Positions 16,682 through 28,276 of a stretch of 29,470 nucleotides of DNA are shown piece by piece. The stretch covers positions 1 through 29,470 of IMG/VR virus record IMGVR_UViG_3300042319_000676. One strand, written 5' to 3'. Origin of the DNA: a virus. Each line of letters begins with the position of its first letter. Within the stretch, counting starts at the first letter, position 1. The notes beneath the pieces are model-generated. The model was given only the letters and a program-made list of their open reading frames with translations, was not told the origin of the DNA and searched no databases. The translations under genes and the position numbers were made by a program.

Positions 16682-16703
16682 TGTCAGACCCCCATGCTAT
16701 GCT
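16682..16703 (+). promoter_or_regulatory. Early promoter 1 (TGTCAG-N10-TATGCT)
   Basis: TGTCAG, ACCCCC spacer start, TATGCT. 35 nt before the ATG at 16739; the leader carries AAACGAAAGG. Confidence 0.75.
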
Positions 16704-16738
16704 TAAGGTATAACAAACAAACGAAAGGTAATCATCTA

Positions 16739-16909
16739 ATGAATACACTAGAACGAATTAGAAAAGAACAACAAGAGCGAAACGCTATCGCTCACGAAAA
16801 GGCTATGGCTAAGTCACCTTGGATTAGAGAGAGCGTACAGGCTTTCCGCAACGCTACACCTGAGCAATTAGCACAGGTCGAGGCTATTCGCCTCAAGAGA
16901 GGCATGTGA
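16739..16909 (+). CDS. Hypothetical helical protein (56 aa)
   Basis: First gene of the rightward early block. Reads MNTLERIRKEQQERNAIAHE and ends AIRLKRGM. Charged and helical, with residues 37-50 (FRNATPEQLAQVEA). The upstream in-frame ATG at 16694 lies in the promoter, so 16739 with leader SD GAAAGG is the start. The stop TGA is part of a Crp-type palindrome. Function unknown; may bind nucleic acid. Confidence 0.75.
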   Translation: MNTLERIRKEQQERNAIAHEKAMAKSPWIRESVQAFRNATPEQLAQVEAIRLKRGM

Positions 16910-16920
16910 CACACCTCACA
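16905..16920. promoter_or_regulatory. Crp/GlxR-type palindrome 3, overlapping a stop codon
   Basis: TGTGA-CACACC-TCACA, perfect arms; its TGA is the stop of the 56-aa gene. Begins 60 bp before the next -10. Confidence 0.6.
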
Positions 16921-16948
16921 GCGACACGCTAGCCCAACCTCCCCAATT

Positions 16949-16970
16949 TGTCAGACCCCCATGCTACAAT
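16949..16970 (+). promoter_or_regulatory. Early promoter 2 (TGTCAG-N10-TACAAT)
   Basis: Same spacer start ACCCCC as promoter 1. 32 nt before ATG 17003; leader CAACGAAAGG. Confidence 0.78.
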
Positions 16971-17002
16971 TACAGAATAACAACAACGAAAGGTCAGAAT
17001 AA

Positions 17003-17116
17003 ATGACACTAGATGAATACAAGCAAATGGTAGAGGCGCAACGCCTTGCCTCCCTAGCAATAGCCCTAGAGGCTTTGCGTAAGTCCGATACAATCGCTAA
17101 GGAGATGAATAAATAA
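17003..17116 (+). CDS. Hypothetical microprotein (37 aa)
   Basis: MTLDEYKQMVEAQRLASLAI then ALEALRKSDTIAKEMNK. Helical. Heads a six-gene unit whose members are mostly joined by TAATG overlaps. Leader SD AACGAAAGG. No family recognised. Confidence 0.7.
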   Translation: MTLDEYKQMVEAQRLASLAIALEALRKSDTIAKEMNK

Positions 17117-17298
17117 TGTCATACGCATACTCATACGAAACTAATAGCGTATCTAAATGGGATACTATCCAATCAGATGTCGCAGACGCATACGCATACC
17201 TTGATGAGGTAGATGAGGAACAACCTCCACTAGATGAATTTGATGACTCAGATGATGAGGCACTAGCAAAACTTTACCAACTAACATGGGAGAACTAA
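17116..17298 (+). CDS. Hypothetical acidic protein (60 aa)
   Basis: Starts MSYAYSYETNSVSKWDTIQS; the second half is very acidic (LDEVDEEQPPLDEFDDSDDE), suggesting a DNA mimic or a binding partner of a basic protein. TAATG coupling to the gene before. Confidence 0.75.
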   Translation: MSYAYSYETNSVSKWDTIQSDVADAYAYLDEVDEEQPPLDEFDDSDDEALAKLYQLTWEN

Positions 17299-17300
17299 TA

Positions 17301-17420
17301 ATGATGTACCCAATGGATACACTAGCCGACATGGCTAAGGCTAACGGATTTACTGTAACACCTGAACTACTAACACTACTAAACAAGTCCTATGAACTAG
17401 GCGTAGAGGATACTTACTAA
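17301..17420 (+). CDS. Hypothetical microprotein (39 aa)
   Basis: MMYPMDTLADMAKANGFTVT, then PELLTLLNKSYELGVEDTY. Either of the two leading ATG codons may start. Follows the previous stop by 2 nt. Function unknown. Confidence 0.65.
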   Translation: MMYPMDTLADMAKANGFTVTPELLTLLNKSYELGVEDTY

Positions 17421-17575
17421 TGATAATCACTTACACACTTTGGCAAGGTAGCCAACTACTAAGCGTTAATAACAAGGCTACTAGCGCAGATGAATTGCTA
17501 ACAGTAATGAACGAACTAAATAAACTAGGTAAGGGTTTCACTTACAACATTAGAGAAGTAGAGGTAAATAAGTAA
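17420..17575 (+). CDS. Hypothetical protein (51 aa)
   Basis: MIITYTLWQGSQLLSVNNKA then a helix (DELLTVMNELNKLGKGF) and a final strand (TYNIREVEVNK). TAATG start overlap at both ends. A small alpha-beta fold is likely. Function unknown. Confidence 0.68.
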   Translation: MIITYTLWQGSQLLSVNNKATSADELLTVMNELNKLGKGFTYNIREVEVNK

Positions 17576-17766
17576 TGACTATCGAACTAAATGAATACGG
17601 CTTTATGCTTGACATGGGTGATTTTATTTACTTATCCCTATCATGGGCTTTCCTTATCTTGTCCTCCGTTGTTTTTATCGGTTATAAGATTTATAAAAGA
17701 GTAAAGAATAATCGAACACTAGGCAATTGCTTGCCTACTAATACTAATGATACATGGGGAGAGTAA
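17575..17766 (+). CDS. Small membrane protein (63 aa)
   Basis: One clear membrane span (about 17-40: FIYLSLSWAFLILSSVVFIG) followed by a basic stop-transfer segment (YKIYKRVKNNR), which places the C-terminal tail in the cytoplasm. TAATG overlaps on both sides. Could be involved in membrane takeover or superinfection exclusion; not recognised. Confidence 0.75.
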   Translation: MTIELNEYGFMLDMGDFIYLSLSWAFLILSSVVFIGYKIYKRVKNNRTLGNCLPTNTNDTWGE

Positions 17767-17885
17767 TGAATAGACTACTTACTACACTAGTCCAATTAGG
17801 TATTGGTATTCCCGCCCTAATTATGCTCCGCCTTGTATGGCGTGAGATCGTAGCGGATTACCGAGAGTGGGCTAACTCACACTAG
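17766..17885 (+). CDS. Small membrane protein (39 aa)
   Basis: MNRLLTTLVQLGIGIPALIM then LRLVWREIVADYREWANSH. One span over residues 4-24 and an amphipathic charged tail. Last of the six-gene unit; it is followed by the DnaA-box block. Confidence 0.65.
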   Translation: MNRLLTTLVQLGIGIPALIMLRLVWREIVADYREWANSH

Positions 17886-17891
17886 CCTAAC

Positions 17892-17993
17892 GGCGTGTCG
17901 GCTTGACATTGTCAAGCTGGCCCGCAAGTACTTGCGGGAGTTATCCACAGGGTTACGGGGGTTATCCACAACCCCCAGGTTTTGCGACACGCC
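17892..17993. repeat. Structured intergenic block A with two DnaA boxes
   Basis: Bounded by GGCGTGTCG (17892) and its reverse complement CGACACGCC (17985). Inside are two perfect palindromes: GCTTGACA-T-TGTCAAGC (17901-17917) and the 18-bp CCCGCAAGTACTTGCGGG (17921-17938). They are followed by TTATCCACA at 17941 and at 17962 (21 bp apart). The second box sits in the loop of a GGGGGTT/AACCCCC hairpin. The block could fold as a multi-branched structure. Confidence 0.75.
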
Positions 17994-18001
17994 CGAGATT
18001 T

Positions 18002-18017
18002 TGTGATTACTATCACA
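18002..18017. promoter_or_regulatory. Crp/GlxR-type palindrome 4
   Basis: TGTGA-TTACTA-TCACA, perfect arms; begins 81 bp before the -10 of promoter 3. A TGAG-CGT-CTCA palindrome follows at 18022-18032. Confidence 0.6.
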
Positions 18018-18066
18018 TAGGCTGAGCGTCTCATTATTTGGAATTACTGGCTAGTAGGTAGATAAA

Positions 18067-18088
18067 TGTCAGACCCCCGTGGTAAAAT
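18067..18088 (+). promoter_or_regulatory. Early promoter 3 (TGTCAG-N10-TAAAAT)
   Basis: 31 nt before ATG 18120; leader ATAACGAAAAAGAAAGG. Confidence 0.72.
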
Positions 18089-18119
18089 ACTACCATAACG
18101 AAAAAGAAAGGTGGTCACT

Positions 18120-18305
18120 ATGACTACACTAACAAATACACATACACACACTCCACACATGGAGAGCGTATCTACTACCTATGGCATGGGTGTAGATGTC
18201 GAATACACTTTCTGCGAAACATGCGAGCAGAACATAGATAGAGTCTATTTCTATGATGACTATGACCGCTTACCATTTTATTCCGATTGGAGTTTAACTA
18301 AATGA
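18120..18305 (+). CDS. Small His/Cys protein (61 aa)
   Basis: MTTLTNTHTHTPHMESVSTT; a histidine cluster (HTHTPH, residues 8-13) and CETC (C32, C35) suggest metal binding. C-terminal DDYDRLPFYSDWSLTK is acidic-aromatic. Start set at the ATG after GAAAGG; a GTG 9 nt upstream is in frame but overlaps the SD. ATGA coupling to the next gene. Confidence 0.72.
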   Translation: MTTLTNTHTHTPHMESVSTTYGMGVDVEYTFCETCEQNIDRVYFYDDYDRLPFYSDWSLTK

Positions 18306-18463
18306 AAACTAATTTTGAGGTAACGCAAGAAATAACAACTCTTGCTAAAAAGCACTATGGCGAAATGGATTTAGCCTTTAAGTGGGGTTGCGCTCAAGCG
18401 TTACTAAGCACTAAGCAATTAGAGATTATTCTAAACATACTAAAAGATAAGGAAACTAACTAA
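18302..18463 (+). CDS. Hypothetical helical protein (53 aa)
   Basis: MKTNFEVTQEITTLAKKHYG, then DLAFKWGCAQALLSTKQLEI and a C-terminal helix. ATGA overlap with the gene before. No recognised family. Confidence 0.68.
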   Translation: MKTNFEVTQEITTLAKKHYGEMDLAFKWGCAQALLSTKQLEIILNILKDKETN

Positions 18464-18604
18464 ATGGCTGTATTTAATTTTGATTTATCCGTTACTGTTG
18501 AGGCAGATGATTTTGAGTCTGCCTTATCATGGTTAAAGGTTGTTCCATTAGAGCGACTTGATTTTATTGTTGTTGATTATACCGAATTGGAGTTAAGCGA
18601 ATGA
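18464..18604 (+). CDS. Hypothetical acidic protein (46 aa)
   Basis: MAVFNFDLSVTVEADDFESA, then LSWLKVVPLERLDFIVVDY. Pattern strand-helix-strand; resembles small ferredoxin-like folds only in outline. ATG begins directly after the previous stop and the end overlaps the next gene as ATGA. Confidence 0.65.
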   Translation: MAVFNFDLSVTVEADDFESALSWLKVVPLERLDFIVVDYTELELSE

Positions 18605-18795
18605 AATCAGATTTCGAAAAAGATTTAGAAATTAAAGAAAGCTTTATTGATTTACTAAATGATGTTTACCCTACTGTAAAAATTGGTTACTCTACTTTTA
18701 CTCCCGCCGAAATTTTGGAATGTTGCGACCCAATCGCTTTTTCAATCGGACTAATTGAACATGAAGATTATTTAGCAGAAATGGAAAACGAATAA
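18601..18795 (+). CDS. Hypothetical acidic protein (64 aa)
   Basis: MKSDFEKDLEIKESFIDLLN, VYPTVKIGYSTFTPAEILEC, CDPIAFSIGLIEHEDYLAEM. The order helix, YSTFTPAEIL and an acidic end recurs in small actinophage proteins, but no function is known to me. ATGA and TAATG overlaps at its ends. Confidence 0.72.
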   Translation: MKSDFEKDLEIKESFIDLLNDVYPTVKIGYSTFTPAEILECCDPIAFSIGLIEHEDYLAEMENE

Positions 18796-18890
18796 TGGAT
18801 TTTTTTGGATTTGAAAAAGCAATTGAAATTGATCATTTAACAGATGAGCAAATTCTAAAGCTTGAAGAAATTTTTAAAGATTTCGAATAA
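18795..18890 (+). CDS. Hypothetical microprotein (31 aa)
   Basis: MDFFGFEKAIEIDHLTDEQI then LKLEEIFKDFE. Acidic and helical. TAATG start. Ends 5 nt before block B. Confidence 0.6.
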   Translation: MDFFGFEKAIEIDHLTDEQILKLEEIFKDFE

Positions 18891-18895
18891 ACAGC

Positions 18896-18994
18896 GGCGT
18901 GTCGACTTGACAAAAGTTGATGCGCCCGCAAAAGAGCGGGGTTATCCACAGGGTTACGGGGGTTATCCACAACCCCTGGAATTTGCGACACGCC
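18896..18994. repeat. Structured intergenic block B with two DnaA boxes
   Basis: Same outer arms as block A (GGCGTGTCG at 18896, CGACACGCC at 18986). Inner CCCGC/GCGGG hairpin, then TTATCCACA at 18942 and 18963, again 21 bp apart, and CCCCTGGAATTTG. The first inner palindrome of block A is degraded here. Confidence 0.75.
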
Positions 18995-19002
18995 CGAGAT
19001 TT

Positions 19003-19018
19003 TGTGATTTTTATCACA
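19003..19018. promoter_or_regulatory. Crp/GlxR-type palindrome 5
   Basis: TGTGA-TTTTTA-TCACA; begins 80 bp before the -10 of promoter 4, followed by TGAG-CGT-CTCA as in the preceding block. Confidence 0.6.
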
Positions 19019-19066
19019 CGACTTGAGCGTCTCAAAATGTGGAATTACTCGCCAGTAATGTGAAAA

Positions 19067-19088
19067 TGTCAGTGGCATAGGCTATAAT
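19067..19088 (+). promoter_or_regulatory. Early promoter 4 (TGTCAG-N10-TATAAT)
   Basis: Spacer TGGCATAGGC, identical to promoter 6. 32 nt before ATG 19121; leader AAACGAAAGG. Confidence 0.8.
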
Positions 19089-19120
19089 TGCCAGTATCAA
19101 CAAACGAAAGGTGACAACTC

Positions 19121-19330
19121 ATGTCAGCAAAAGCATACACTATCGAAAGCCTCTTAGAGGGAAAACACTATCGCTCACACTCTCGCCATGACGAGGGAAC
19201 TATCGTATACGCAACAAAGCGTGACGCAATTTGGTACGGAGAAAACCTAGAGGCTTACGCTATCGAGGTTCGCCCAACCCGTGGGATCAAAAACTTTTGG
19301 GCAACCATTGCGGTTAGGGTATCTGACTAA
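19121..19330 (+). CDS. Hypothetical protein (69 aa)
   Basis: MSAKAYTIESLLEGKHYRSH, SRHDEGTIVYATKRDAIWYG, then a strand AYAIEVRPTR. Looks like a compact alpha-beta fold with basic surface. Alone in its transcription unit: a new promoter begins 2 nt after its stop. Function unknown. Confidence 0.75.
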   Translation: MSAKAYTIESLLEGKHYRSHSRHDEGTIVYATKRDAIWYGENLEAYAIEVRPTRGIKNFWATIAVRVSD

Positions 19331-19332
19331 TT

Positions 19333-19354
19333 TGTCAGTGCTATCCGCTATAAT
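19333..19354 (+). promoter_or_regulatory. Early promoter 5 (TGTCAG-N10-TATAAT)
   Basis: Starts 2 nt after a stop codon and has no Crp-type site upstream. 28 nt before ATG 19383; leader AAACGAAAGG. Confidence 0.8.
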
Positions 19355-19382
19355 TACAGAATAAACAAACGAAAGGAAAACT

Positions 19383-19547
19383 ATGTTAAACATAATCGAC
19401 AAAACCGATTTCTATGAAATCGCAGACGAGCAACATTTTTGTTGTGATGAAAGTCAATTTAAGTATTACTGTATCGAACACCTAGAATTTATGGGTTGCT
19501 ACTTTTGCGGATTTGACTATGACAAAGATTGCGAGGAACAACACTAA
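19383..19547 (+). CDS. Cys-rich small protein (54 aa)
   Basis: MLNIIDKTDFYEIADEQHFC; cysteines at 20, 21, 30, 39, 42 and 50 with histidines (EQH, EHL) suggest a zinc-binding fold, including MGCYFCGFDYD (CxxC at 39-42). TAATG overlap with the next gene. Confidence 0.7.
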   Translation: MLNIIDKTDFYEIADEQHFCCDESQFKYYCIEHLEFMGCYFCGFDYDKDCEEQH

Positions 19548-19687
19548 TGATTAACTCAGTATTAACAATAGATTGCCAAGATTGCTTAGGTCATGGCGTA
19601 ATCTTTTTTGGTGATGATAATGATTTTGATTGCGAGCCTTGCGATTGTCAAGATGGCTCTTTATTTAAGAACGGGGAAAATGACTAA
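19547..19687 (+). CDS. DnaJ-type zinc-finger microprotein (46 aa)
   Basis: CQDCLGHGV (C10, C13, G15, G17) is the CxxCxGxG motif of the DnaJ cysteine-rich domain. A second set CEPCDC (C29, C32, C34) completes four ligands. No J domain is present. Such fragments in phages may bind unfolded or partner proteins; role unknown. TAATG overlaps on both sides. Confidence 0.72.
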   Translation: MINSVLTIDCQDCLGHGVIFFGDDNDFDCEPCDCQDGSLFKNGEND

Positions 19688-19893
19688 TGTACCAAATAAC
19701 AATTTCCTACGATAGCAAGCCTATCCATTGGAATAAAAACTATGATGACGCTTTAGAAGCGTTCACCGCATTTCTTTCATTTACCGATTGGGGATTTGCT
19801 AACGAATACTCAACTGTAAATTTAATGACGCCAACTGGCAAGATGTACACAAAAACATTTTATCGTGAAGGTCGAAAGGTCGTAACAAAATGA
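19687..19893 (+). CDS. Hypothetical protein (68 aa)
   Basis: MYQITISYDSKPIHWNKNYD then DALEAFTAFLSFTDWGFANE and a final strand and basic tail (FYREGRKVVTK). Alpha-beta. Coupled at both ends. Confidence 0.72.
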   Translation: MYQITISYDSKPIHWNKNYDDALEAFTAFLSFTDWGFANEYSTVNLMTPTGKMYTKTFYREGRKVVTK

Positions 19894-20081
19894 TGACAAG
19901 AAAAGATTATGTCGCAGTAGCAGAAATTTTAAACTTTGCTAGTGATAAGGCGCACCCTGCTTTATTTTCTAAAATTGTAAATGATTTCGCAGTTATGTTC
20001 GCAAAAGATAATGAGCGATTTGATGTAAACCGATTTCATAAAGCGTGTGGATACCATGTCACAAAATTCACTTCGAGATAA
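19890..20081 (+). CDS. Hypothetical protein (63 aa)
   Basis: MMTRKDYVAVAEILNFASDK, then FSKIVNDFAVMFAKDNERFD and VNRFHKACGY. The RKDYVAVAEIL to NPRFD-like ending recurs in actinophage small proteins; its function is not known to me. Overlaps the next gene by 26 nt in another frame. Confidence 0.75.
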   Translation: MMTRKDYVAVAEILNFASDKAHPALFSKIVNDFAVMFAKDNERFDVNRFHKACGYHVTKFTSR

Positions 20082-20187
20082 AGTTAAACGCATACAGGAA
20101 TTGCGTCGCAGTAATGCGGCGCAACCTGTACGCAATAAGAAAAAATATTTTAGAAAAATAAAACATAAAAATAAATTTGATCAATGA
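20056..20187 (+). CDS. Strongly basic microprotein (43 aa)
   Basis: MSQNSLRDKVKRIQELRRSN, AAQPVRNKKKYFRKIKHKN, ending KFDQ. About one third Lys/Arg, so nucleic-acid binding is likely. No strong SD; starts inside the preceding gene. It ends directly before block C. Confidence 0.6.
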   Translation: MSQNSLRDKVKRIQELRRSNAAQPVRNKKKYFRKIKHKNKFDQ

Positions 20188-20192
20188 CGCTG

Positions 20193-20252
20193 CCCGCCCG
20201 TAAAGCTGCGGGGTTATCCACAGGGTTACGGGCGTTATCCACAACCCCCTGG
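20193..20252. repeat. Structured intergenic block C with two DnaA boxes
   Basis: CCCGC/GCGGG hairpin (20193-20211), TTATCCACA at 20214 and 20235 (21 bp apart), then CCCCCTGGAATTTG. The outer GGCGTGTCG arms of blocks A and B are missing; a GGGCGTGTTG remnant follows at 20293. Confidence 0.72.
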
Positions 20253-20256
20253 AATT

Positions 20257-20272
20257 TGTGAGATTAATCACA
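20257..20272. promoter_or_regulatory. Crp/GlxR-type palindrome 6
   Basis: TGTGA-GATTAA-TCACA; begins 69 bp before the -10 of promoter 6. Confidence 0.6.
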
Positions 20273-20309
20273 AAATAAATTAGATAAAGCTTGGGCGTGT
20301 TGAGCAATT

Positions 20310-20331
20310 TGTCAGTGGCATAGGCTATAAT
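20310..20331 (+). promoter_or_regulatory. Early promoter 6 (TGTCAG-N10-TATAAT)
   Basis: 29 nt before ATG 20361; leader CAACAACGAAAGG, one of the best matches to the candidate sRNA complement. Confidence 0.8.
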
Positions 20332-20360
20332 ACTCTTATACCAACAACGAAAGGCAACAA

Positions 20361-20564
20361 ATGAGAATAGAACACAACCTGAAGTTCGTAACAGAGTTTA
20401 AGGACGGCCATCCAGTAACTAAGCAAATAGAAATGCTTGATGAGGATACTCGTATCTTTATGCTAGAGTCAATGCTAAAAGATTTAGTCGGTAGCCGACT
20501 ACAACCAATTCTTGATGAGATAAATGCTAATGGCTCATACGCAATTCTTAAGGTGGCAGAATAA
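20361..20564 (+). CDS. Hypothetical protein (67 aa)
   Basis: MRIEHNLKFVTEFKDGHPVT, then KQIEMLDEDTRIFMLESMLK and DEINANGSYAILKVAE. Strand-helix-strand pattern. TAATG overlap with the next gene. Not recognised. Confidence 0.75.
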   Translation: MRIEHNLKFVTEFKDGHPVTKQIEMLDEDTRIFMLESMLKDLVGSRLQPILDEINANGSYAILKVAE

Positions 20565-20827
20565 TGGGATACAATACAGCATTAGATTTAACTGAATTAG
20601 ATTTAGAGGTAGCACTAGGTTATCACTTACAGGGTAATCATTACCCGCCCGTCCCACTTTCTATGGTACAGCCTTGTATCGAGGCTATTGATGCTTACTA
20701 TGATGAGGATTATAATAAGTTGATCGAAATGCCTGAAGGCGTATCTTATAAGGGTGACTCTCATGCGCCAGCGTGGGCTATTATCGAACAGCACCACTTA
20801 GACGCTTGGCTACCTGAAAGTGACTAA
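20564..20827 (+). CDS. Hypothetical protein (87 aa)
   Basis: MGYNTALDLTELDLEVALGY, HLQGNHYPPVPLSMVQPCIE, AIDAYYDEDYNKLIEMPEGV. Opening HLQGNHYPPVP is a typical small-phage motif linking a helix to a proline turn; the rest is acidic. It recurs in actinophages as far as I know, without assigned function. Confidence 0.78.
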   Translation: MGYNTALDLTELDLEVALGYHLQGNHYPPVPLSMVQPCIEAIDAYYDEDYNKLIEMPEGVSYKGDSHAPAWAIIEQHHLDAWLPESD

Positions 20828-20843
20828 GGTCACACAATAACTT

Positions 20844-20858
20844 TCTCAAATAATGAGA
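20844..20858. promoter_or_regulatory. Palindrome TCTCA-N5-TGAGA, copy 1
   Basis: TCTCA-AATAA-TGAGA, 15 bp before promoter 7. Same arms as the palindrome at 28800-28814; operator candidate. Confidence 0.45.
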
Positions 20859-20872
20859 TAGGGCTAGACTAA

Positions 20873-20894
20873 TGTCAGACCCCAATGCTATAAT
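20873..20894 (+). promoter_or_regulatory. Early promoter 7 (TGTCAG-N10-TATAAT)
   Basis: Spacer ACCCCAATGC. 30 nt before ATG 20925; leader AACAAAGAAAAGAGG is the most divergent. Confidence 0.78.
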
Positions 20895-20924
20895 TACCAA
20901 CCTAACAAAGAAAAGAGGCAATAA

Positions 20925-21107
20925 ATGACAATCAACGACAAGTTGTATCAGGTAGGCGATTTATTCACTACCCTTAAGTCAAAGAAAACAGGTGTGATTA
21001 AAGAAATCCACCCACAAACATCTGGCTCGGTGCGTGTGCTATTGGAAATGCCAAACAAGGAAACTCGTTGGACTTCCGTATCCGCTCAAACACTACTAGG
21101 CGTATAA
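20925..21107 (+). CDS. Hypothetical small beta protein (60 aa)
   Basis: MTINDKLYQVGDLFTTLKSK, KTGVIKEIHPQTSGSVRVLL, EMPNKETRWTSVSAQTLLGV. The run of strands with GDLFTT..KTGVI..V resembles a KOW/SH3-like barrel that binds nucleic acid; inferred from pattern only. Single-gene unit. Confidence 0.75.
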   Translation: MTINDKLYQVGDLFTTLKSKKTGVIKEIHPQTSGSVRVLLEMPNKETRWTSVSAQTLLGV

Positions 21108-21132
21108 TCTAAAGGCAGGGGGGTCGCAGAAA

Positions 21133-21154
21133 TGTCAGACCTCCCTGCTATAAT
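21133..21154 (+). promoter_or_regulatory. Early promoter 8 (TGTCAG-N10-TATAAT)
   Basis: 39 nt before ATG 21194; leader ACAACGAAAGAAGG, which would pair over 11 nt with the ncRNA candidate. Confidence 0.8.
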
Positions 21155-21193
21155 TACTTCATCAACCCAACCCACAACGAAAGAAGGAAACAA

Positions 21194-21616
21194 ATGGCTA
21201 GAGGAAAAGCAATCTCGGTGAAAATCCCAACTCAGCGAGTAATCAAGGCTTTGGAAACAAAGTTGGCACAACTAAATAAAGACTTCGCATCACAAGAAGC
21301 AAACGAAGCAAAGTATAACAAGCAGGTAGAAGCGTGGAAAAAGGAAATTGGAAAGTGGGCTATTGCTAACTTCTCAAAGGCTGAAAACCTACGCACAAAC
21401 TATCGCAACTGGAACAACACTCTCAATGTTGATTTTGACATCATCACAAAGGAAGGAAACTTCCCTGCTGAACCTGAGAAGGACTACGAAGTAATCCACC
21501 GCCACTCATACAATGAGATGAAAGAGGAAATGGAAAACGCAATTCGTATTCTTAAAATGACAGATGAGGAAGTTGTTAATACCAGCACTTACAATGCGGT
21601 TGCTCGTTATCTGTAA
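21194..21616 (+). CDS. Hypothetical coiled-coil protein (140 aa)
   Basis: Basic start MARGKAISVKIPTQRVIKAL, then a long helix (LETKLAQLNKDFASQEANEA) that could be a coiled coil. The C-terminal half has EVIHRHSYNEMKEEMENAIR and ILKMTDEEVVNTSTYNAVAR. It follows its promoter alone and is 71 nt before the next gene. No known domain; a structural or DNA-associated role is possible. Confidence 0.78.
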   Translation: MARGKAISVKIPTQRVIKALETKLAQLNKDFASQEANEAKYNKQVEAWKKEIGKWAIANFSKAENLRTNYRNWNNTLNVDFDIITKEGNFPAEPEKDYEVIHRHSYNEMKEEMENAIRILKMTDEEVVNTSTYNAVARYL

Positions 21617-21687
21617 ATAATCCAACGACCTGAGTATGTCGCCAAACTGCTCTCCCTTTTGGGACAACTACTAACAAAGGCAACAAA

Positions 21688-21942
21688 ATGAAAAATCGTT
21701 TCAGAGTAGAAATCTATGATGAGAACAAGTTAAATGATGTAACAATTTATTCAGAGCAAGGCGTTGATAAGGAATACTTAACTGAATTAGCATTCTCTAA
21801 TCGCCGTAACTTTTTTGGTGATGTTCGTGCTTATGTGTATGATACATTGAAGAAGACTAAGACAACTGCTCTTTATCTTCCCGCCGAAGTTATTAACTTC
21901 AATCGAAAGAATCAATTAACCAGGGATGAGTTAGGTCTGTAA
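21688..21942 (+). CDS. Hypothetical protein (84 aa)
   Basis: MKNRFRVEIYDENKLNDVTI, YSEQGVDKEYLTELAFSNRR, then AYVYDTLKKTKTTALYLPAE. Two strand-helix-strand units. Preceded by AACAAAGGCAACAAA, similar to the early leaders but without its own TGTCAG box, so it is probably transcribed with the 140-aa gene. Confidence 0.75.
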   Translation: MKNRFRVEIYDENKLNDVTIYSEQGVDKEYLTELAFSNRRNFFGDVRAYVYDTLKKTKTTALYLPAEVINFNRKNQLTRDELGL

Positions 21943-21954
21943 AGATCTAACACT

Positions 21955-22024
21955 AGCTGCATATCCTGCAGCTGGCCCGTAAAGGTAAGGGGTTATCCAC
22001 AGGGTTACGACTGCCTGTGGATAT
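21955..22024. repeat. Structured intergenic block D with inverted DnaA boxes
   Basis: AGCTGCA/TGCAGCT hairpin (21955-21973), then TTATCCACA at 21993 and, in reverse, TGTGGATAT at 22016 (8 of 9). Together TATCCACAGG and CCTGTGGATA form a 10-bp inverted repeat. Differs from A-C in box orientation. Confidence 0.7.
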
Positions 22025-22035: not shown

Positions 22036-22051
22036 TGTGAGATTAATCACA
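22036..22051. promoter_or_regulatory. Crp/GlxR-type palindrome 7
   Basis: TGTGA-GATTAA-TCACA, identical to palindrome 6; begins 70 bp before the -10. CAATTCGGACATA follows at 22057. Confidence 0.6.
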
Positions 22052-22089: not shown

Positions 22090-22111
22090 TGTCAGTGGCA
22101 CCTGTTATACT
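22090..22111 (+). promoter_or_regulatory. Early promoter 9 (TGTCAG-N10-TATACT)
   Basis: 31 nt before ATG 22143; leader CAAACGAAAGG. Confidence 0.78.
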
Positions 22112-22142: not shown

Positions 22143-23150
22143 ATGGCTCACAATCTAGAAATGGAAAACGGCGAAGTTGCTTTCGCTCTCCGTGGCGCAC
22201 CTGCTTGGCACAACCTAGCAAATCGCATCTTCACAAAAGATGAAGAAGTTACTACCGCCCTAATGCTTGAAGAAGCAAAGTTGGCAAATTGGAATGTTCG
22301 TCTATCTCCAATCACTGAGCACATTCCAGAATCTTGGAATGATGTCTCTACCGCATCTCTTGTCATTCGTGACAATCCATTCAATAAGGGAACTGATGTT
22401 CTTGCCACTGTTGGCAAGCGTTACAAGCCTGTACAGAATGAAGAATTATTCGCATTCGCTGATGCTATTCATGATGCGAACGCTGACTGCCGTTGGGAAT
22501 CTGCTGGCTCATTGAAAAAGGGCAAAGTTGTATTCGGCACTGTTGATATTCCTCGCACAATGGTTCTTGACCCACAAGGTGCCAACGATGAAACTAAACT
22601 CTATTTAATTGTATGGACATCACATGACGGGTCAGTTGCTGTTCAGGCTGCTGTTACTCCTGTTCGTGTTGTATGCCAAAACACATTGAATCTTGCCATG
22701 CGTAACGCTAAGCAATCTTTCAAGATTCGTCATACGCAATCTGTTGAAGGTCGCATTCAAGTTGCTCGTGAAACTCTTGGGCTTGCTCTTGGTTACTTTG
22801 ATGAATTCGAGAAGGAAGCGCAAGCACTTTATTCTCAGTCAATTACTGATGCTGAATTCTCAAAGTTAATTCACACAATTTATCCAAAGCCTGCTGATGA
22901 TGCTGCTAAAGTTGCGCTAACTAAATGGGAGAATAAGGTCGTGCTACTTGATGACCTTTACCATAACTCACCAACTAATGCTAACATCAAGGGAACTAAA
23001 TGGGGTGCGTTTAATGCTCTCACCGAACGCCTTGATTACTATCGCTCAGGTCGTGGAAATTCTGAAACGCTTATGGCTGGCGCATCAGGATTTGACCCAG
23101 TGCTAACCGCTGAGAAAAACAAAATCAAGAAATTGATTTCTGCTTTCTAA
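22143..23150 (+). CDS. DUF932 / TIGR03299 phage-plasmid protein (335 aa)
   Basis: Largest gene of the early block. The opening MAHNLEMENGEVAFALRGAP, then AWHNLANRIF, and later RYKPVQNEELFAFADAI, LIVWTSHDGSVAVQAAVTPV and RVVCQNTLNLAM are hallmark blocks of DUF932 (TIGR03299), widespread in phages and plasmids and of unknown molecular function. The C-terminal part (NIKGTKWGAFNALTERLDYY) is also typical. Start set after leader SD AAACGAAAGG; an upstream in-frame ATG lies in promoter 9. Often encoded near replication functions, but that is context, not proof. Confidence 0.92.
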   Translation: MAHNLEMENGEVAFALRGAPAWHNLANRIFTKDEEVTTALMLEEAKLANWNVRLSPITEHIPESWNDVSTASLVIRDNPFNKGTDVLATVGKRYKPVQNEELFAFADAIHDANADCRWESAGSLKKGKVVFGTVDIPRTMVLDPQGANDETKLYLIVWTSHDGSVAVQAAVTPVRVVCQNTLNLAMRNAKQSFKIRHTQSVEGRIQVARETLGLALGYFDEFEKEAQALYSQSITDAEFSKLIHTIYPKPADDAAKVALTKWENKVVLLDDLYHNSPTNANIKGTKWGAFNALTERLDYYRSGRGNSETLMAGASGFDPVLTAEKNKIKKLISAF

Positions 23151-23197: not shown

Positions 23198-23274
23198 GGT
23201 CCATTAGCTCAGTTGGTTAGAGCGCTACCCTGTCACGGTAGAGGCCGACGGTTCAAGTCCGTTATGGATCGCCA
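23198..23274 (+). tRNA. tRNA-Asp (anticodon GUC)
   Basis: 77 nt. Acceptor GGTCCAT pairs with ATGGATC (one G-U). The anticodon stem CTACC/GGTAG encloses CTGTCAC with anticodon GTC. T arm GACGG/CCGTT around TTCAAGT; CCA is encoded at the 3 prime end. It lies between the DUF932 gene and promoter 10. Confidence 0.95.
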
Positions 23275-23277
23275 AGC

Positions 23278-23319: not shown

Positions 23320-23346
23320 TTTAAATTCCCTGGAATCTATTGTAAA

Positions 23347-23368
23347 TGTCAGTGGGGTCCTGTATAAT
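23347..23368 (+). promoter_or_regulatory. Early promoter 10 (TGTCAG-N10-TATAAT), leaderless
   Basis: The -10 ends 7 nt before an ATG at 23376, so transcription would start at or next to the start codon. It lacks the usual AACGAAAGG leader. Confidence 0.75.
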
Positions 23369-23375
23369 TCTGTAC

Positions 23376-24050
23376 ATGACCAACGAACTAGTATCAAGCG
23401 TGTACACATTTGTCTGTGACCCAGATGAGTGTGATTGTTTAATCCAATTAACATCATCTGATGGATTTGGCTTTCCATCAGGTGTGACAGAACTCACATG
23501 CCCGTGTGGCCGTAAGACCACATTAGTGTCAGTGGAGCATGCTACAATTACATCCTTAAACCAAACGAAAGAAGGAAGCAATATGGACGGAATGACAGTA
23601 GAAAACCTGCCTCTATCAGATGCAGAGAAGTACAACCCTGACCAATTAGTTACATACAAAGTAATCCGTGGTTATTCGGATGCTGAATATGCTACAGATA
23701 AAGTTCGCAACATTGAATACGAACTGCATAATGGTCGCACAAATTCTAAGGCAGTCTCATCTTTACAGAATAAGATTGGCTTAGTTAAAGATATTATTTC
23801 AGAGGCATATGCTGATTCAGAAGACCAAGAAACTTTGCAAGCAATTGCAGAAGCGCTTGAGATTGAATTAATTAGAGAGATTGAATGGTCTGCATCTATT
23901 GAAGTTAGCGGAACTATTTCAGTCAACCTACTTGAGGATACTCATTTTGACTTAGATTCAGAAATTGAAGATGCTCTTTATGCTGATTCACACAATGGCA
24001 ACATTGAAGTTGTTGACCAAGAAATCTGCAACATTAGGGAGAACTGCTAA
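23376..24050 (+). CDS. Zinc-ribbon protein with nested second start (224 aa, or 155 aa from 23583)
   Basis: From ATG 23376 the frame reads MTNELVSSVYTFVCDPDECD, CLIQLTSSDGFGFPSGVTEL and TCPCGRKTTL. CDPDECDC and CPCG look like a zinc ribbon of about 50 residues. The same frame then runs through promoter 11 (as SVEHATI) and its leader to a second ATG at 23583 with SD GAAGGAAG, giving a 155-aa form MDGMTVENLPLSDAEKYNPD. The C-terminal domain has ALEIELIREIEWSASIEVSG then TISVNLLEDTHFDLDSEIED, a small sensor-like alpha-beta unit. So a leaderless long form and a leadered short form may share one C terminus. Alternatively only the short form is made. Confidence 0.75.
   Translation: MTNELVSSVYTFVCDPDECDCLIQLTSSDGFGFPSGVTELTCPCGRKTTLVSVEHATITSLNQTKEGSNMDGMTVENLPLSDAEKYNPDQLVTYKVIRGYSDAEYATDKVRNIEYELHNGRTNSKAVSSLQNKIGLVKDIISEAYADSEDQETLQAIAEALEIELIREIEWSASIEVSGTISVNLLEDTHFDLDSEIEDALYADSHNGNIEVVDQEICNIRENC
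23527..23548 (+). promoter_or_regulatory. Early promoter 11, inside coding sequence
   Basis: TGTCAG-N10-TACAAT within the long zinc-ribbon frame; 34 nt before ATG 23583; leader CCAAACGAAAGAAGG. Confidence 0.78.
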
Positions 24051-24253: not shown

Positions 24254-24262
24254 GGAGAAATT

Positions 24263-24615: not shown

Positions 24616-24616
24616 A

Positions 24617-24982: not shown

Positions 24983-24983
24983 T
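24962..24983 (+). promoter_or_regulatory. Probable ncRNA promoter (degenerate AGTCGA-N10-TATAAT)
   Basis: Same 10-bp geometry as the early promoters but the upstream box is AGTCGA. The -10 is perfect and overlaps the stop codon of the 121-aa gene. Confidence 0.5.
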
Positions 24984-24989
24984 TAGACT

Positions 24990-25131: not shown

Positions 25132-25199
25132 ATTGCCCGCAAAGACTTGAGGGTAGCATGTTTGTTTTACGACGTCAAGTTAATTTTCCCAGGAATTTG

Positions 25200-25215
25200 T
25201 GTGATCTTGACCACA
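25200..25215. promoter_or_regulatory. Crp/GlxR-type palindrome 9 (one mismatch) and adjacent palindrome
   Basis: TGTGA-TCTTGA-CCACA begins 78 bp before the -10 of promoter 12. A second perfect palindrome GGTGTG-AAA-CACACC lies at 25231-25245. Confidence 0.5.
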
Positions 25216-25261
25216 TAGCTTGGAAAATGTGGTGTGAAACACACCTATTTGCTATTCCAAA

Positions 25262-25283
25262 TGTCAGTGGTCCATTGTATAAT
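25262..25283 (+). promoter_or_regulatory. Early promoter 12 (TGTCAG-N10-TATAAT)
   Basis: 27 nt before ATG 25311; leader TCAACGAAAGG. Confidence 0.8.
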
Positions 25284-25310
25284 TGGAACATATCAACGAA
25301 AGGATATAAA

Positions 25311-26045
25311 ATGCCAAATTGGGTATTTAATGGATTAACTATTGAAGGTAATCCTGAGCAAGTAAAATCTCTAATCAAACAAATGAATAAGCCATTTGTT
25401 TATTCTATTACTGCAGTAGGTGATTTATCATATGATGTCAAGCAGACTAAGTATGTTAATCCTATCTTTGCTTTTCATAATATCTATAACTATAGAGATG
25501 CTGGTATTACTGATGAGGTATATCATGGACAGCCTCCTCGTTCCACCGACTTTTCTCAGGCAATGAAGTTTGAGACCAATGACTGGTACAACTTTAATGT
25601 GCGTGAGTGGGGAACCAAGTGGGATGTTGCTGTAGCCGAGGGTAATAAGTATCCTGATACAACTATTGAAGAAGCAGAAAACGGTGAGAACTATGTAGTT
25701 CATTACAACTTTAACACTGCATGGTCACGACCTCTTGGTGCTATCTCTAAACTATCTGCACAATACCCAACACTACTATTTACTTTATCATATGAAGAAG
25801 AAACAGGTTGGGGTGGGGAAATGGAATTCCTCCGTGGAGAAGTTATATCAGAATCAGAATACGATAACATGTGCCGTGATTGTGATGCAACTGACCAAAT
25901 GGAATACTGCGACAATGACTGCGGTGAAATCTGTGGCAACTGCAACTGGCTAGGCAATGCTGACCTAGAGGCTGTAGCAATTTGTCAGACCCATAAGATA
26001 TACTTAGACACTAAAGTACCCGAATATAGAAAGGCGGAAGCATAA
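25311..26045 (+). CDS. Api92-like (DUF1281-type) protein with C-terminal zinc module (244 aa)
   Basis: MPNWVFNGLTIEGNPEQVKS is the signature opening of the Api92-like phage family (DUF1281/ferredoxin-like). The middle NTAWSRPLGAISKLSAQYPT then LFTLSYEEETGWGGEMEF is the second conserved block. The family has no known activity. A Cys-rich tail follows (C188, C191, C200, C204, C208, C211, C225), likely a zinc module. Start set after leader SD CGAAAGG; the frame open from 25158 only reflects non-coding sequence. Promoter 13 lies in its last codons. Confidence 0.85.
   Translation: MPNWVFNGLTIEGNPEQVKSLIKQMNKPFVYSITAVGDLSYDVKQTKYVNPIFAFHNIYNYRDAGITDEVYHGQPPRSTDFSQAMKFETNDWYNFNVREWGTKWDVAVAEGNKYPDTTIEEAENGENYVVHYNFNTAWSRPLGAISKLSAQYPTLLFTLSYEEETGWGGEMEFLRGEVISESEYDNMCRDCDATDQMEYCDNDCGEICGNCNWLGNADLEAVAICQTHKIYLDTKVPEYRKAEA
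25983..26004 (+). promoter_or_regulatory. Early promoter 13, inside coding sequence
   Basis: TGTCAG-N10-TATACT within codons for CQTHKIYL of the Api92-like gene; 40 nt before ATG 26045, with AGAAAGGCGG as SD. Confidence 0.65.
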
Positions 26046-26257
26046 TGGAAGCATTTACAGATACAGTAGGAGAACATATCCTTGGAGCAATTCAAGTAGA
26101 TATTGAGCAACATCTCTTTGAACAATGGAACAGCAAAAATTTAGATGAGGGCAGCGATTATGCTGAATATATGTTCATGCAATTTGCTCCTGATAACTTA
26201 AAACAATCATACAATGAGTACTATGGTTATATTGAAGGAGATGAATTCCTCCTATGA
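26045..26257 (+). CDS. Hypothetical acidic protein (70 aa)
   Basis: MEAFTDTVGEHILGAIQVDI, EQHLFEQWNSKNLDEGSDYA, EYMFMQFAPDNLKQSYNEYY. TAATG start. Helical and acidic. Not recognised. Confidence 0.75.
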   Translation: MEAFTDTVGEHILGAIQVDIEQHLFEQWNSKNLDEGSDYAEYMFMQFAPDNLKQSYNEYYGYIEGDEFLL

Positions 26258-26400
26258 TTACCAGCCAAGAACTAATTGATTATATCTATGATGACAACTT
26301 AATCCATTTTGATGATAGAGATACATCAGATGATTGTGATTGTCACATTCATATAACACTTAATACTATGATTAAATATATGGAGGCAATAGAATGCTAG
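26254..26400 (+). CDS. Hypothetical protein with DCDCHIH motif (48 aa)
   Basis: MITSQELIDYIYDDNLIHFD, then DDRDTSDDCDCHIHITLNTM. The acidic and Cys/His cluster could bind a metal ion. ATGA overlap before, 7-nt overlap after. Confidence 0.7.
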   Translation: MITSQELIDYIYDDNLIHFDDRDTSDDCDCHIHITLNTMIKYMEAIEC

Positions 26401-26567
26401 GTTATACTAAAGATGATCTTGATGAGATGATTAACTCAGTACATGATGCTAAGTTATTTTATCTTAGAACCCCGTCCGATTTAATGGACAAGTCAATATT
26501 AAATGAAGGCTTGTTAAAAACAAATGACTTCCTCCAGGGGCTTTGGGCGGAGGGTTATTTTGACTAA
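26394..26567 (+). CDS. Hypothetical protein (57 aa)
   Basis: MLGYTKDDLDEMINSVHDAK, then FYLRTPSDLMDKSILNEGLL and FLQGLWAEGYFD. Overlaps the previous gene by 7 nt. SD GGAGG sits upstream. All-helical by appearance; not recognised. Confidence 0.7.
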   Translation: MLGYTKDDLDEMINSVHDAKLFYLRTPSDLMDKSILNEGLLKTNDFLQGLWAEGYFD

Positions 26568-26766
26568 GTCATCACATTTTATGGAGTATCTAAAGATACA
26601 TAAGATTAGTTTAGAACAAGATTTAGAAGATGCTAGAAATAATATTCCTATTCCTGAAGATGAATACTTCGAATCAGATAGTTATTATATGGGTGCCATT
26701 GATACTATGGAACATATTTTGTCAGTGGCTACTGATATAATGATTGATAACGAAAGGGTATATTAA
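26560..26766 (+). CDS. Hypothetical protein, TTG start (68 aa)
   Basis: GGAGG at 26549 is 6 nt before TTG 26560, which fits better than the ATG at 26524 (no SD). Reads TKSSHFMEYLKIHKISLEQD, then DEYFESDSYYMGAIDTMEHI and LSVATDIMIDNERVY. Its last 15 codons contain the whole of promoter 14. Confidence 0.68.
   Translation: MTKSSHFMEYLKIHKISLEQDLEDARNNIPIPEDEYFESDSYYMGAIDTMEHILSVATDIMIDNERVY
26720..26741 (+). promoter_or_regulatory. Early promoter 14, inside coding sequence
   Basis: TGTCAG-N10-TATAAT in the codons for SVATDIM, with leader ATAACGAAAGG, 24 nt before ATG 26766. Confidence 0.75.
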
Positions 26767-26969
26767 TGAACATATCATCTAGAGAAGTTACTTATCGTTC
26801 CGCCGTTGAACAAATATTTTTTGAGGACGGGACAGAATTGGTAATCACAATTGGTGCTCCTGCCGAAGGCGGAGGAGATATCGATATTGAATATGATTGG
26901 GTAGAAGGAAAGCCTGATTGGGCAAACAACTTAAATGAATCAACACTAGTGAACTATGAGGTAATATAA
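26766..26969 (+). CDS. Hypothetical acidic beta protein (67 aa)
   Basis: MNISSREVTYRSAVEQIFFE, DGTELVITIGAPAEGGGDID, then a WVEGKPDWANNLNESTLVNY tail. Likely strands throughout. TAATG overlaps at both ends. Confidence 0.75.
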   Translation: MNISSREVTYRSAVEQIFFEDGTELVITIGAPAEGGGDIDIEYDWVEGKPDWANNLNESTLVNYEVI

Positions 26970-27259
26970 TGAATCAAGAAGACATTGGGCTCCCTCCGCA
27001 CCTACAGCGTTTGGTTAATGCGGGTGTTAGCGGATTAGATATAATGCACGGAGAACTAAAGAACTTAATGCTAATTGCCGAGCAAGATTTAAAGGACGCA
27101 TTAGCACAGGAGGAGTTGTCTGAAGAGGCAATGGATTCTATGGTCCGAACAGAATGTGAAGGACGACTAGATACTCTAGTCGAACTATATCAACTAACAT
27201 ATGAACTATCATTTGCAATTCAATCAAGAATAGATTTGGAGTTTGCTAATGAAGCCTGA
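26969..27259 (+). CDS. Hypothetical acidic helical protein (96 aa)
   Basis: MNQEDIGLPPHLQRLVNAGV, SGLDIMHGELKNLMLIAEQD, then acidic LAQEELSEEAMDSMVRTECE and a final helix. Could be a small helical bundle. TAATG start; overlaps the next gene by 11 nt. Confidence 0.78.
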   Translation: MNQEDIGLPPHLQRLVNAGVSGLDIMHGELKNLMLIAEQDLKDALAQEELSEEAMDSMVRTECEGRLDTLVELYQLTYELSFAIQSRIDLEFANEA

Positions 27260-27575
27260 CGATAAAGATAAACTAAACAAGTGTTTAGAGATTCTAGACA
27301 GCACTGACCTAGGTCTATCATTAGTTTGGTTGTGGACTTGGTCAACAATTAACAACATATTTGAGGATGAGACCTACAAGCAGAACTGCACCCTAGATGA
27401 CATGTGGGGCCACCTCTGTGAGGCTGTGGAGGCTGGTATGGGGTTCTCTCTGGAGTACGGTGCCGAACAGCACAACGAAGATGTCCTTGAATGGATGATG
27501 AATCGTGAATACATTGTGGACACAATGTTTGAGGAAGATGAAGAAGAGGAGGACGACGAAGATGAAGATGAGTGA
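27249..27575 (+). CDS. Hypothetical protein with poly-acidic tail (108 aa)
   Basis: MKPDDKDKLNKCLEILDSTD, LGLSLVWLWTWSTINNIFED, and a tail after MMNREYIVDTMF of about 16 Glu/Asp. Start at the ATG inside the previous gene; an upstream in-frame TTG exists. Tail may mimic DNA or bind cations. Function unknown. Confidence 0.75.
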   Translation: MKPDDKDKLNKCLEILDSTDLGLSLVWLWTWSTINNIFEDETYKQNCTLDDMWGHLCEAVEAGMGFSLEYGAEQHNEDVLEWMMNREYIVDTMFEEDEEEEDDEDEDE

Positions 27576-27705
27576 TAAGTACTTAAACGATCAACTTAGT
27601 AAAGCCCAAAAGCTTTTGTGGGGTGGGTCCGAAACAGAAAACATCGAGGCACACAACATCATTGCTAAACTAATTAAAGACAAGATAGAACAGGTGGAAC
27701 TATGA
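27568..27705 (+). CDS. Hypothetical microprotein (45 aa)
   Basis: MSDKYLNDQLSKAQKLLWGG then SETENIEAHNIIAKLIKDKI. Overlaps the acidic tail of the previous gene in another frame. An ATG 6 nt upstream is an alternative. Helical, charged. Confidence 0.65.
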   Translation: MSDKYLNDQLSKAQKLLWGGSETENIEAHNIIAKLIKDKIEQVEL

Positions 27706-27884
27706 CTAAACAGTTTAAAGTATATGGCGACACCATTCAGGAATTTTACATTGTAGTAGAAGCCAAGGACAGCGATGAGGCATGGTACAAGGCAGTAGCC
27801 GCACCTAAGAAAGAATGGCAAAAGGGTGCCAATCGTAAAGATAAGATAGAGCCATACCAAGTAGAAGAACTAACAACTGAATAA
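27702..27884 (+). CDS. Hypothetical small alpha-beta protein (60 aa)
   Basis: MTKQFKVYGDTIQEFYIVVE, then AKDSDEAWYKAVAAPKKEW and a basic-acidic end. The order strand-strand-helix (YIVVEAKDSDEAW) resembles small DUF-type folds of phages. ATGA start. Confidence 0.75.
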   Translation: MTKQFKVYGDTIQEFYIVVEAKDSDEAWYKAVAAPKKEWQKGANRKDKIEPYQVEELTTE

Positions 27885-27896
27885 AGATAGGTTGGG

Positions 27897-27923
27897 CCGT
27901 TATGGACAATTCGGACATAACGG
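27897..27923. repeat. Inverted repeat CCGTTATG ... CATAACGG
   Basis: 8-bp perfect arms around GACAATTCGGA; includes the CAATTCGGACATA motif also found at 22057. Operator or terminator-like structure between two transcription units. Confidence 0.55.
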
Positions 27924-27968
27924 TCATAATCTAAGGGCACGGGCAAAAATTTTGCTTTACGGCACCTA

Positions 27969-27997
27969 TTTACAAATCGCCGAAATTCGGATATAAT
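27969..27997 (+). promoter_or_regulatory. Sigma70-type promoter of the Lsr2-like gene
   Basis: TTTACA, 17-bp spacer, TATAAT, 33 nt before ATG 28031. A canonical spacing, unlike the early promoters around it. Confidence 0.75.
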
Positions 27998-28030
27998 ATA
28001 TATAACAAAGATCTAGAAAGGATCAAACAA

Positions 28031-28183
28031 ATGACATCAACACCAACAACAACTCGTGAGTACCTCAAGACCCAGGGAATTTCTGTGGGCAAGCGTGGCC
28101 GCTTTTCAGCTGCAGCTCTAGGCGTTATCAGCAAGGCAGCACAAGAGGGCGTAGTCTTCACAGACAAGAAGAACGTCAAGTAA
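28031..28183 (+). CDS. Lsr2-type DNA-binding domain-only protein (50 aa)
   Basis: Residues 8-32 (TREYLKTQGISVGKRGRFSA) align with the C-terminal DNA-binding domain of Lsr2, the actinobacterial xenogeneic silencer. That domain ends in REW...G..VS.RGRIPA and inserts RGR (here 22-24) into AT-rich minor grooves. The N-terminal oligomerization domain of Lsr2 is absent. Such a protein could bind AT-rich phage or host DNA, compete with host Lsr2, or act as a regulator. It is the only gene here with a canonical sigma70 promoter, so it may be expressed differently. SD GAAAGG. Confidence 0.8.
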   Translation: MTSTPTTTREYLKTQGISVGKRGRFSAAALGVISKAAQEGVVFTDKKNVK

Positions 28184-28197
28184 TAAACTAAGTGTGG

Positions 28198-28238
28198 GGT
28201 TCCTCCTCTCTGTGGGAAAACGGGAAAGGGGAGGAACC
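28198..28238 (+). terminator. Hairpin after the Lsr2-like gene
   Basis: GGTTCCTCC and GGAGGAACC pair over a long G/A-rich loop; weak U content after. Probable terminator before promoter 15. Confidence 0.5.
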
Positions 28239-28254
28239 TCGCTTCATTTACAAA

Positions 28255-28276
28255 TGTCAGTGGTCAATGGTATAAT
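28255..28276 (+). promoter_or_regulatory. Early promoter 15 (TGTCAG-N10-TATAAT)
   Basis: 21 nt before ATG 28298, the shortest leader; AAAACGAAAGG present. Confidence 0.8.

Follow-up and report, generated by a model that had tools for sequence, protein, structure and literature searches.

The 29,470-base virus record IMGVR_UViG_3300042319_000676, the whole of which is referred to here as the window, carries at 16682-28276 a cluster of 15 TGTCAG-N10-TANNNT sites, every one on the + strand, in which a TGTCAG box precedes a −10-like hexamer by exactly 10 bp (Table 1). The whole window contains 16 such sites, all on the + strand, the cluster being accompanied by one stray copy in the structural-gene half (3901-3922, + strand) that is probably a chance match, whereas 100 dinucleotide shuffles of the window average 0.38 and never exceed 2. 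Across the window, TGTCRG is paired with TANNNT 16 times at N10 but never at N9 or N11. These counts bear out the sequence-only reading, which had reported 15 TGTCAG-N10 sites with −10-like hexamers and had taken their exact spacing as a sign of selection; its list of −10 variants also stands, whereas TATAAT, claimed for ten sites, is found in nine of the 15 on recount. The spacer opens with TGG in eight sites, ACC in six and TGC in one, in agreement with the statement that nearly all begin with TGG or ACC, and an ATG lies 21-40 nt past the −10 element in 14 of the 15, as had been noted, with the set sequence said usually to precede it present as exact AACGAAAGG before nine of those 14 ATGs.

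A seed pattern comprising the box, the −10 element and a Shine-Dalgarno sequence matched at least 120 stretches of IMG/VR. Every one of the 120 loci listed has at least two matches to the proteins of the 116.5-kb contig G003, with 39-95% mean identity, and these loci are therefore assigned to one phage lineage. Outside the seed matches, the TGTCAG hexamers of these loci (n = 1073) have a TANNNT at N10 in 719 cases, at N9 in 10 and at N11 in five; other spacings up to N29 give 1-69, save N5 with 163, partly because some spacers contain TANNNT at that place. Each of ten contigs of 97-117 kb carries 5-18 sites, almost all gathered into a single co-directional cluster, compared with 0-2 matches per contig for the reversed control pattern. 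When units of a −10 element and AACGAAAGG were taken with no requirement for a box (n = 315), TGTCAG appeared at the exact place in 265 and TGTCGG in 24, many of the remaining 26 being off-register reads of the same promoters. The orthologue test comprised 14 window promoters and 524 orthologous genes with 120 bases upstream, hits starting past residue 12 being dropped; the motif is kept upstream of 459 of the 524 (362 of 427 outside the seed pattern), and none of the 524 has only an N9 or N11 spacing.

The logo of 182 non-redundant sites, whose box letters were set by the site selection, as were T, A and T in the −10 element, reads WWW-TGTCAG-[TA]SS...TGn-TAtAAT, with an extended −10 (TGn) often present and no conserved −35 element. 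A near −35, defined as five of the six TTGACA bases at 16-18 bp, is seen in 31 of the 182, compared with 2-3 at control positions, and 151 are without one. Both the promoter character of the sites and the dissimilarity of the box to a normal −35, proposed earlier, are supported. Across 755 unique sites, the first long-open ATG after the −10 element lies at 6 nt in 21 and at 7 nt in 38, only three ATGs fall between 7 nt and 19 nt, and a leadered class begins at 20 nt. An ATG 6-7 nt after the −10 leaves no space for a leader, so that these mRNAs are probably leaderless, with the ATG as +1. Promoter 10 of the window would fit such a leaderless mRNA and, provided that the nearby ATGs are leaderless starts, the centre of the box would lie between about −25.5 and −26.5. 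Promoters 10 and 11 (23347-24050) together present a probably leaderless long frame with an in-frame internal start, and a 179/180-bp promoter pair recurs in 37 of 121 sources (the window and 36 loci, among the matches listed). Judged from the DNA, the lineage has conserved a putative promoter class in which a TGTCRG box stands exactly 10 bp before a sigma-A-type −10 element, mostly without a −35 element.

The motif itself is already known as a host promoter, the RecA-NDp/PafBC type. The P1/RecA-NDp consensus of mycobacterial DNA-damage genes is given as tTGTCRgtg - 8 nt - TannnT (PMC5656591), which contains TGTCRG-N10-TANNNT letter for letter, and the R of the box was recovered independently here by the 265 TGTCAG and 24 TGTCGG of the 315 units. 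According to the literature, (i) the RecA-NDp motif reaches beyond mycobacteria to other Actinobacteria (PMC8223512), (ii) the helix-turn-helix (HTH) of PafB engages the −26 motif, with PafBC placed between the DNA and sigma-A domain 4 (PMC11804915), (iii) PafBC depends on single-stranded DNA (ssDNA) being held by its WYL domains and binds promoter DNA only when RNA polymerase is present (PMC11804915), and (iv) deletion of pafBC blocks P1 induction. The phage sites share with the mycobacterial and actinobacterial promoters the TGTCRG box, the exact 10 bp to TANNNT, a probable location near −26 and the usual lack of a −35; they differ in that most larger contigs gather 10-22 of them in one region before small genes, in that the box is followed by TG or AC/SS instead of tg, and in that part of the lineage joins them to Crp-type sites. 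We consider it likely, by analogy, that the 15 sites are PafBC-type (RecA-NDp) promoters and constitute a phage regulon driven by host PafBC; the dependence of the phage promoters on PafBC, and ssDNA as their trigger, would follow from the same comparison. The earlier suggestion that the box is read by an activator is to that extent upheld. As a separate observation, the SOS box CGAAC-N4-GTTCG occurs once in the window at 9506, outside the promoter cluster, and once in the contig G011:C31 at 6066, near a box; none is present in G003, G009 or Streptomyces phage BillNye.

The preference for this register was also apparent when each hexamer was scanned at 22 spacings (4-25 bp) before TANNNT, each spacing being judged against the others. 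TGTCAG-N10 is the top element in the window, G003, G009 and G011:C31, and the leading elements AATGTC-N12 in G019 and G020 and GTCGGT-N9 in G021 represent the same WWTGTCRGT box in the same register. The box has dialects: G021 has 17 TGTCGG versus five TGTCAG at N10, and G020, in which TGTCTT (9) and TGTCGT (6) are also enriched at N10, is a looser dialect that tolerates other letters after TGTC. In BillNye the top element is TTGACA-N18, which is also strong in G011:C31, where its occurrence beside the box indicates that normal and box promoters coexist within one genome. Four of the 14 box promoters of G011:C31 carry TTGATA one base before the box.

Part of the cluster is associated with a further element, the palindrome TGTGA-N6-TCACA, which is the GlxR consensus as published (PMC7999487). 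The window contains eight copies where 0.03 are expected, all of them 44-75 bp before a box and serving seven of the 15 promoters; a distance of 43-75 bp holds for 8/8 palindromes in the window, 7/7 in G003 and 4/4 in G011:C31. Among 406 related but non-redundant promoters, 135 have a palindrome within 250 bp, from which 137 distances were taken. The 12 distances of the window and G011:C31 cluster at intervals of one helical turn (R 0.82; p 5e-5 by permutation). Helical phasing is a requirement of class I activators, and the Crp/GlxR-type sites appear to lie mostly on one helical face, as such activation would require; the status of cyclic AMP (cAMP) may thus tune seven of the 15 window promoters. 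Farther upstream in the palindrome-bearing intergenic regions lie seven TTATCCACA boxes, which we take to be DnaA-box-like, at 17941-22001 (0.34 expected), arranged as three pairs 21 bp apart and one single box. Inverted repeats GGCGTGTCG ... CGACACGCC (17892-17993 and 18896-18994) flank the DnaA-box-like pairs of promoters 3 and 4.

Table 1. Box promoters, associated upstream elements and selected genes of the window. Orthologue counts give the orthologous genes that keep the motif upstream.
Feature	Position	Strand	Description
Promoter 1	16682..16703	+	TGTCAG-N10-TATGCT; two Crp-type palindromes upstream; 5/5 orthologues
Promoter 2	16949..16970	+	TGTCAG-N10-TACAAT; 11/14 orthologues
Promoter 3	18067..18088	+	TGTCAG-N10-TAAAAT; 14/15 orthologues
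Promoter 4	19067..19088	+	TGTCAG-N10-TATAAT; 53/54 orthologues
Promoter 5	19333..19354	+	TGTCAG-N10-TATAAT; only 14/28 orthologues
Promoter 6	20310..20331	+	TGTCAG-N10-TATAAT; 36/36 orthologues
Promoter 7	20873..20894	+	TGTCAG-N10-TATAAT; 50/51 orthologues
Promoter 8	21133..21154	+	TGTCAG-N10-TATAAT; 54/57 orthologues
Promoter 9	22090..22111	+	TGTCAG-N10-TATACT; before DUF932 gene; 59/60 orthologues
Promoter 10	23347..23368	+	TGTCAG-N10-TATAAT; ATG 7 nt after −10; outside orthologue count
Promoter 11	23527..23548	+	TGTCAG-N10-TACAAT; 180 bp downstream of promoter 10; 19/19 orthologues
Promoter 12	25262..25283	+	TGTCAG-N10-TATAAT; 72/73 orthologues (outside seed pattern: 15/16)
Promoter 13	25983..26004	+	TGTCAG-N10-TATACT; 52/55 orthologues
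Promoter 14	26720..26741	+	TGTCAG-N10-TATAAT; 7/7 orthologues
Promoter 15	28255..28276	+	TGTCAG-N10-TATAAT; only 13/50 orthologues
Crp/GlxR-type palindrome TGTGA-N6-TCACA	16607..16622	.	75 bp before promoter 1
Crp/GlxR-type palindrome	16632..16647	.	50 bp before promoter 1; off common helical phase
Crp/GlxR-type palindrome	16905..16920	.	44 bp before promoter 2
Crp/GlxR-type palindrome	18002..18017	.	65 bp before promoter 3
Crp/GlxR-type palindrome	19003..19018	.	64 bp before promoter 4
Crp/GlxR-type palindrome	20257..20272	.	53 bp before promoter 6
Crp/GlxR-type palindrome	22036..22051	.	54 bp before promoter 9
Crp/GlxR-type palindrome	23483..23498	.	44 bp before promoter 11
TTATCCACA pair	17941..17970	+	21 bp apart; upstream of promoter 3
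TTATCCACA pair	18942..18971	+	21 bp apart; upstream of promoter 4
TTATCCACA pair	20214..20243	+	21 bp apart; upstream of promoter 6
Single TTATCCACA	21993..22001	+	upstream of promoter 9
DUF932 gene behind promoter 9	22143..23150	+	PF06067, E 9.2e-56
Reading frame from promoter-10 ATG	23376..24050	+	promoter-11 start nested in same frame
Gene behind promoter 12	25311..26045	+	DUF1281_C match

Besides the features of Table 1, the window holds a tRNA-Ile(tat) gene at 15944-16019 and a tRNA-Asp(gtc) gene at 23198-23274, the latter within the promoter cluster; a toxin-domain family for the open reading frame (ORF) at 21194 was rejected, its Pfam match lying below the cut-off and being taken as chance.

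The lineage is related to the Stanwilliamsviridae, G003 sharing 57% identity in DnaE, 59% in ribonucleotide reductase (RNR) and 47% in WhiB with BillNye, and G021 is a further member, with a DnaE 54% identical to that of G003. BillNye resembles these phages in its orthologous core genes and many small ORFs but differs from them in having no TGTCRG-N10 site and TTGACA-N18 as leading element; repeated AAAGCCTATG ... GTGGAATGCGC units were seen by eye before several of its genes (L139, about 31000-32400). Five Streptomyces/Rhodococcus relatives together give eight box matches versus 16 for the reversed control. G019 is a 48.6-kb fragment with a T4-type terminase, in which eight of 91 ORFs match the lineage, the terminase, portal and capsid genes not being among the eight, and its 17 matches comprise 12 boxes in one co-directional run and five on the other strand. 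That the promoter class is shared where the packaging genes differ is a pointer to a host factor, although the class could also have spread through the exchange of early genes. G019 is linked, through one protein each, to Dishui Lake phage DSL-LC01 and to phages of Microbacterium and Gordonia; DSL-LC01, Pumpernickel and GodonK are without the battery (0, 2 and 1 matches versus 0, 1 and 1 controls). G019 also encodes a histone-deacetylase-fold protein (L320 4055-5026; PF00850, E 1.2e-40).

WhiB and the kin of these phages suggest an actinobacterial host, and the kin together with the sample names give the impression of a freshwater origin. Isolated Planktophila phages with WhiB have been described, but these are other phages (PMC10202952). 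A search of genome contigs with the strict box pattern gave no match, and an RNR query of the same kind of contigs gave 13 loci, of which none carries an actinobacterial name and one is a 110-kb phage of this lineage (L140, the G011:C31 contig) in a bin named 'uncultured cyanobacterium'. For PafBC in Nanopelagicales, the literature matches listed contain nothing.

The alternatives concern which protein reads the box. The sequence-only reading had envisaged a phage-encoded activator or sigma-like factor, neither of which is recognisable: 13 records (BillNye and 12 box-bearing ones, the window included) yielded no WYL protein, and 11 records, again with the window included, yielded no sigma-70 region 2, some of these records possibly being fragments, and the recognised DNA-binding proteins, WhiB, a 46-amino-acid HTH protein and HTH_17, are also present in BillNye, which is without the box. 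A MotA-like activator that binds TGTCRG and recruits host RNA polymerase is unlikely, yet carries some weight. The battery occurs only in metagenomic phages among those tested, and the arrangement recalls T4 middle promoters, where a MotA box with a −10 element likewise replaces the −35 before co-directional phage genes; T4 MotA, however, is phage-encoded and tolerates 11-13 bp, whereas the boxes described here keep one exact spacing and are probably read by a host protein. Four G003 cluster ORFs (72478, 73342, 73705 and 74877 in G003 coordinates) occur in four of the five other box contigs while missing from BillNye, and the orthologue of 73705 in the window has a YccV-like match below cut-off, but no G003 ORF is present by tblastn in all of G009, G011:C31, G019, G020 and G021 and missing from BillNye, G019 and G020 being fragments. 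Ten cluster proteins gave no Pfam match above the cut-off, and a novel small protein is possible, as only 46 distinct proteins were profile-scanned (20 of the window and 26 of the 182 ORFs called in G003); the motif, on the other hand, pre-exists as a host promoter class. Another host regulator, ClgR/ClpR or a different WYL protein, might read the same motif, and ClgR/ClpR is reported to recognise the mycobacterial P1 promoter (as cited in PMC5656591); we regard this as improbable, because it is PafBC that has been observed on the −26 motif, and pafBC deletion is reported to block P1 induction.

That TGTCAG might be a repressor operator, as also raised by the sequence-only reading, and overlap extended −10 promoters has very little probability and leaves the fixed 10-bp register to the −10 element unexplained. 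The many repeated TGTC-containing sites in an actinophage do resemble in outline the GGTGGMTGTCAAG stoperators of cluster A mycobacteriophages, and some sites of the logo can be taken as a partial inverted repeat, TGTCAG-N6-CTGNTA, but its second half-site is weak (T 61%, G 74%) and sometimes shifted by one base, while the distance from box to TATAAT is fixed. Stoperators are scattered genome-wide, whereas the phage boxes cluster at promoters in fixed register, with matches outside the cluster only at the level of the reversed control. Scarcely any credence attaches to an alternative or phage sigma factor using TGTCRG as its −35: with 10 bp between them, the two hexamers stand too close together for sigma regions 4 and 2, and the 11 records mentioned gave no match to sigma-70 region 2, although two isolated phages of Planktophila, E7 and F5, distinct from the phages considered here, are described as encoding a sigma-70 factor (PMC10202952). 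Four further candidates were rejected: (i) a single-subunit phage RNA polymerase, as the −10 variants are typical of sigma A and the start region is unconserved; (ii) WhiB, which is shared with the box-less BillNye; (iii) WhiA, whose GACAC motif is at odds with the W that precedes the box; and (iv) sigma-54, considered for the strict spacing, which actinobacteria are not known to have, the −10 being moreover of sigma-A type.

Several observations weigh against a phage regulon under host PafBC, or against parts of that account. The cultured Streptomyces and Rhodococcus relatives do not use the box, and their hosts should presumably have PafBC. In the window the box continues as TGTCRGTG in nine of 15 sites and with AC instead of TG in six, and in the logo of 182 sites the base before the box is A in 61% and T in 35%, compared with t in the mycobacterial consensus; G020 has 28 AATGTC-N12 versus 11 TGTCAG and seven TGTCGG at N10. 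Some of the 31 promoters with a near −35 may fire without PafBC, and promoters 15 and 5 are weakly conserved. G019 shares seven G003 ORFs by tblastn, two of them from the promoter cluster, so that early genes, perhaps with one for a phage factor among them, may have carried the battery along. The Crp association is likewise uneven, the single palindrome of G009 not lying near a box and G019, G020 and G021 having none. The cluster genes are presumed early from their small co-directional ORFs and from the position of the cluster relative to the RNR and transglycosylase genes, which corresponds to the BillNye genome end; the label 'early' is thus drawn from gene size and synteny only.

With PafBC as reader, the mechanism known from mycobacterial work would operate as follows. 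Host RNA polymerase with the housekeeping sigma A would stop at the −10 element; the host heterodimer PafBC, with ssDNA held in its WYL domains, would insert between sigma domain 4 and the DNA; and the PafB HTH would read TGTCRG, allowing transcription to start ('sigma adaptation'). The phage would thereby place co-directional small genes, probably early or middle, under the host DNA-damage switch, and phage output would rise with the ssDNA that arises from genome entry, from breakdown of host DNA or from phage replication. A broader proposal, tentative and rather doubtful as it stands, is that actinophages whose packaging genes differ have placed an entire regulon under host-type PafBC promoters without a phage regulator, by convergence or early-region exchange, one branch having fused them to phased Crp sites near DnaA-box pairs, so that expression would follow the ssDNA (and cAMP) state of the host.

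Among the matches listed, in open-licence literature only, no report of PafBC driving a phage regulon was found, and PafBC has so far been known as a host repair regulator. If the proposal is true, host DNA damage would be a direct on-switch for phage genes, which would provide a testable account of how infection starts in phages of hard-to-culture actinobacteria, and the sequence signature could link metagenomic phages to PafBC-bearing hosts.

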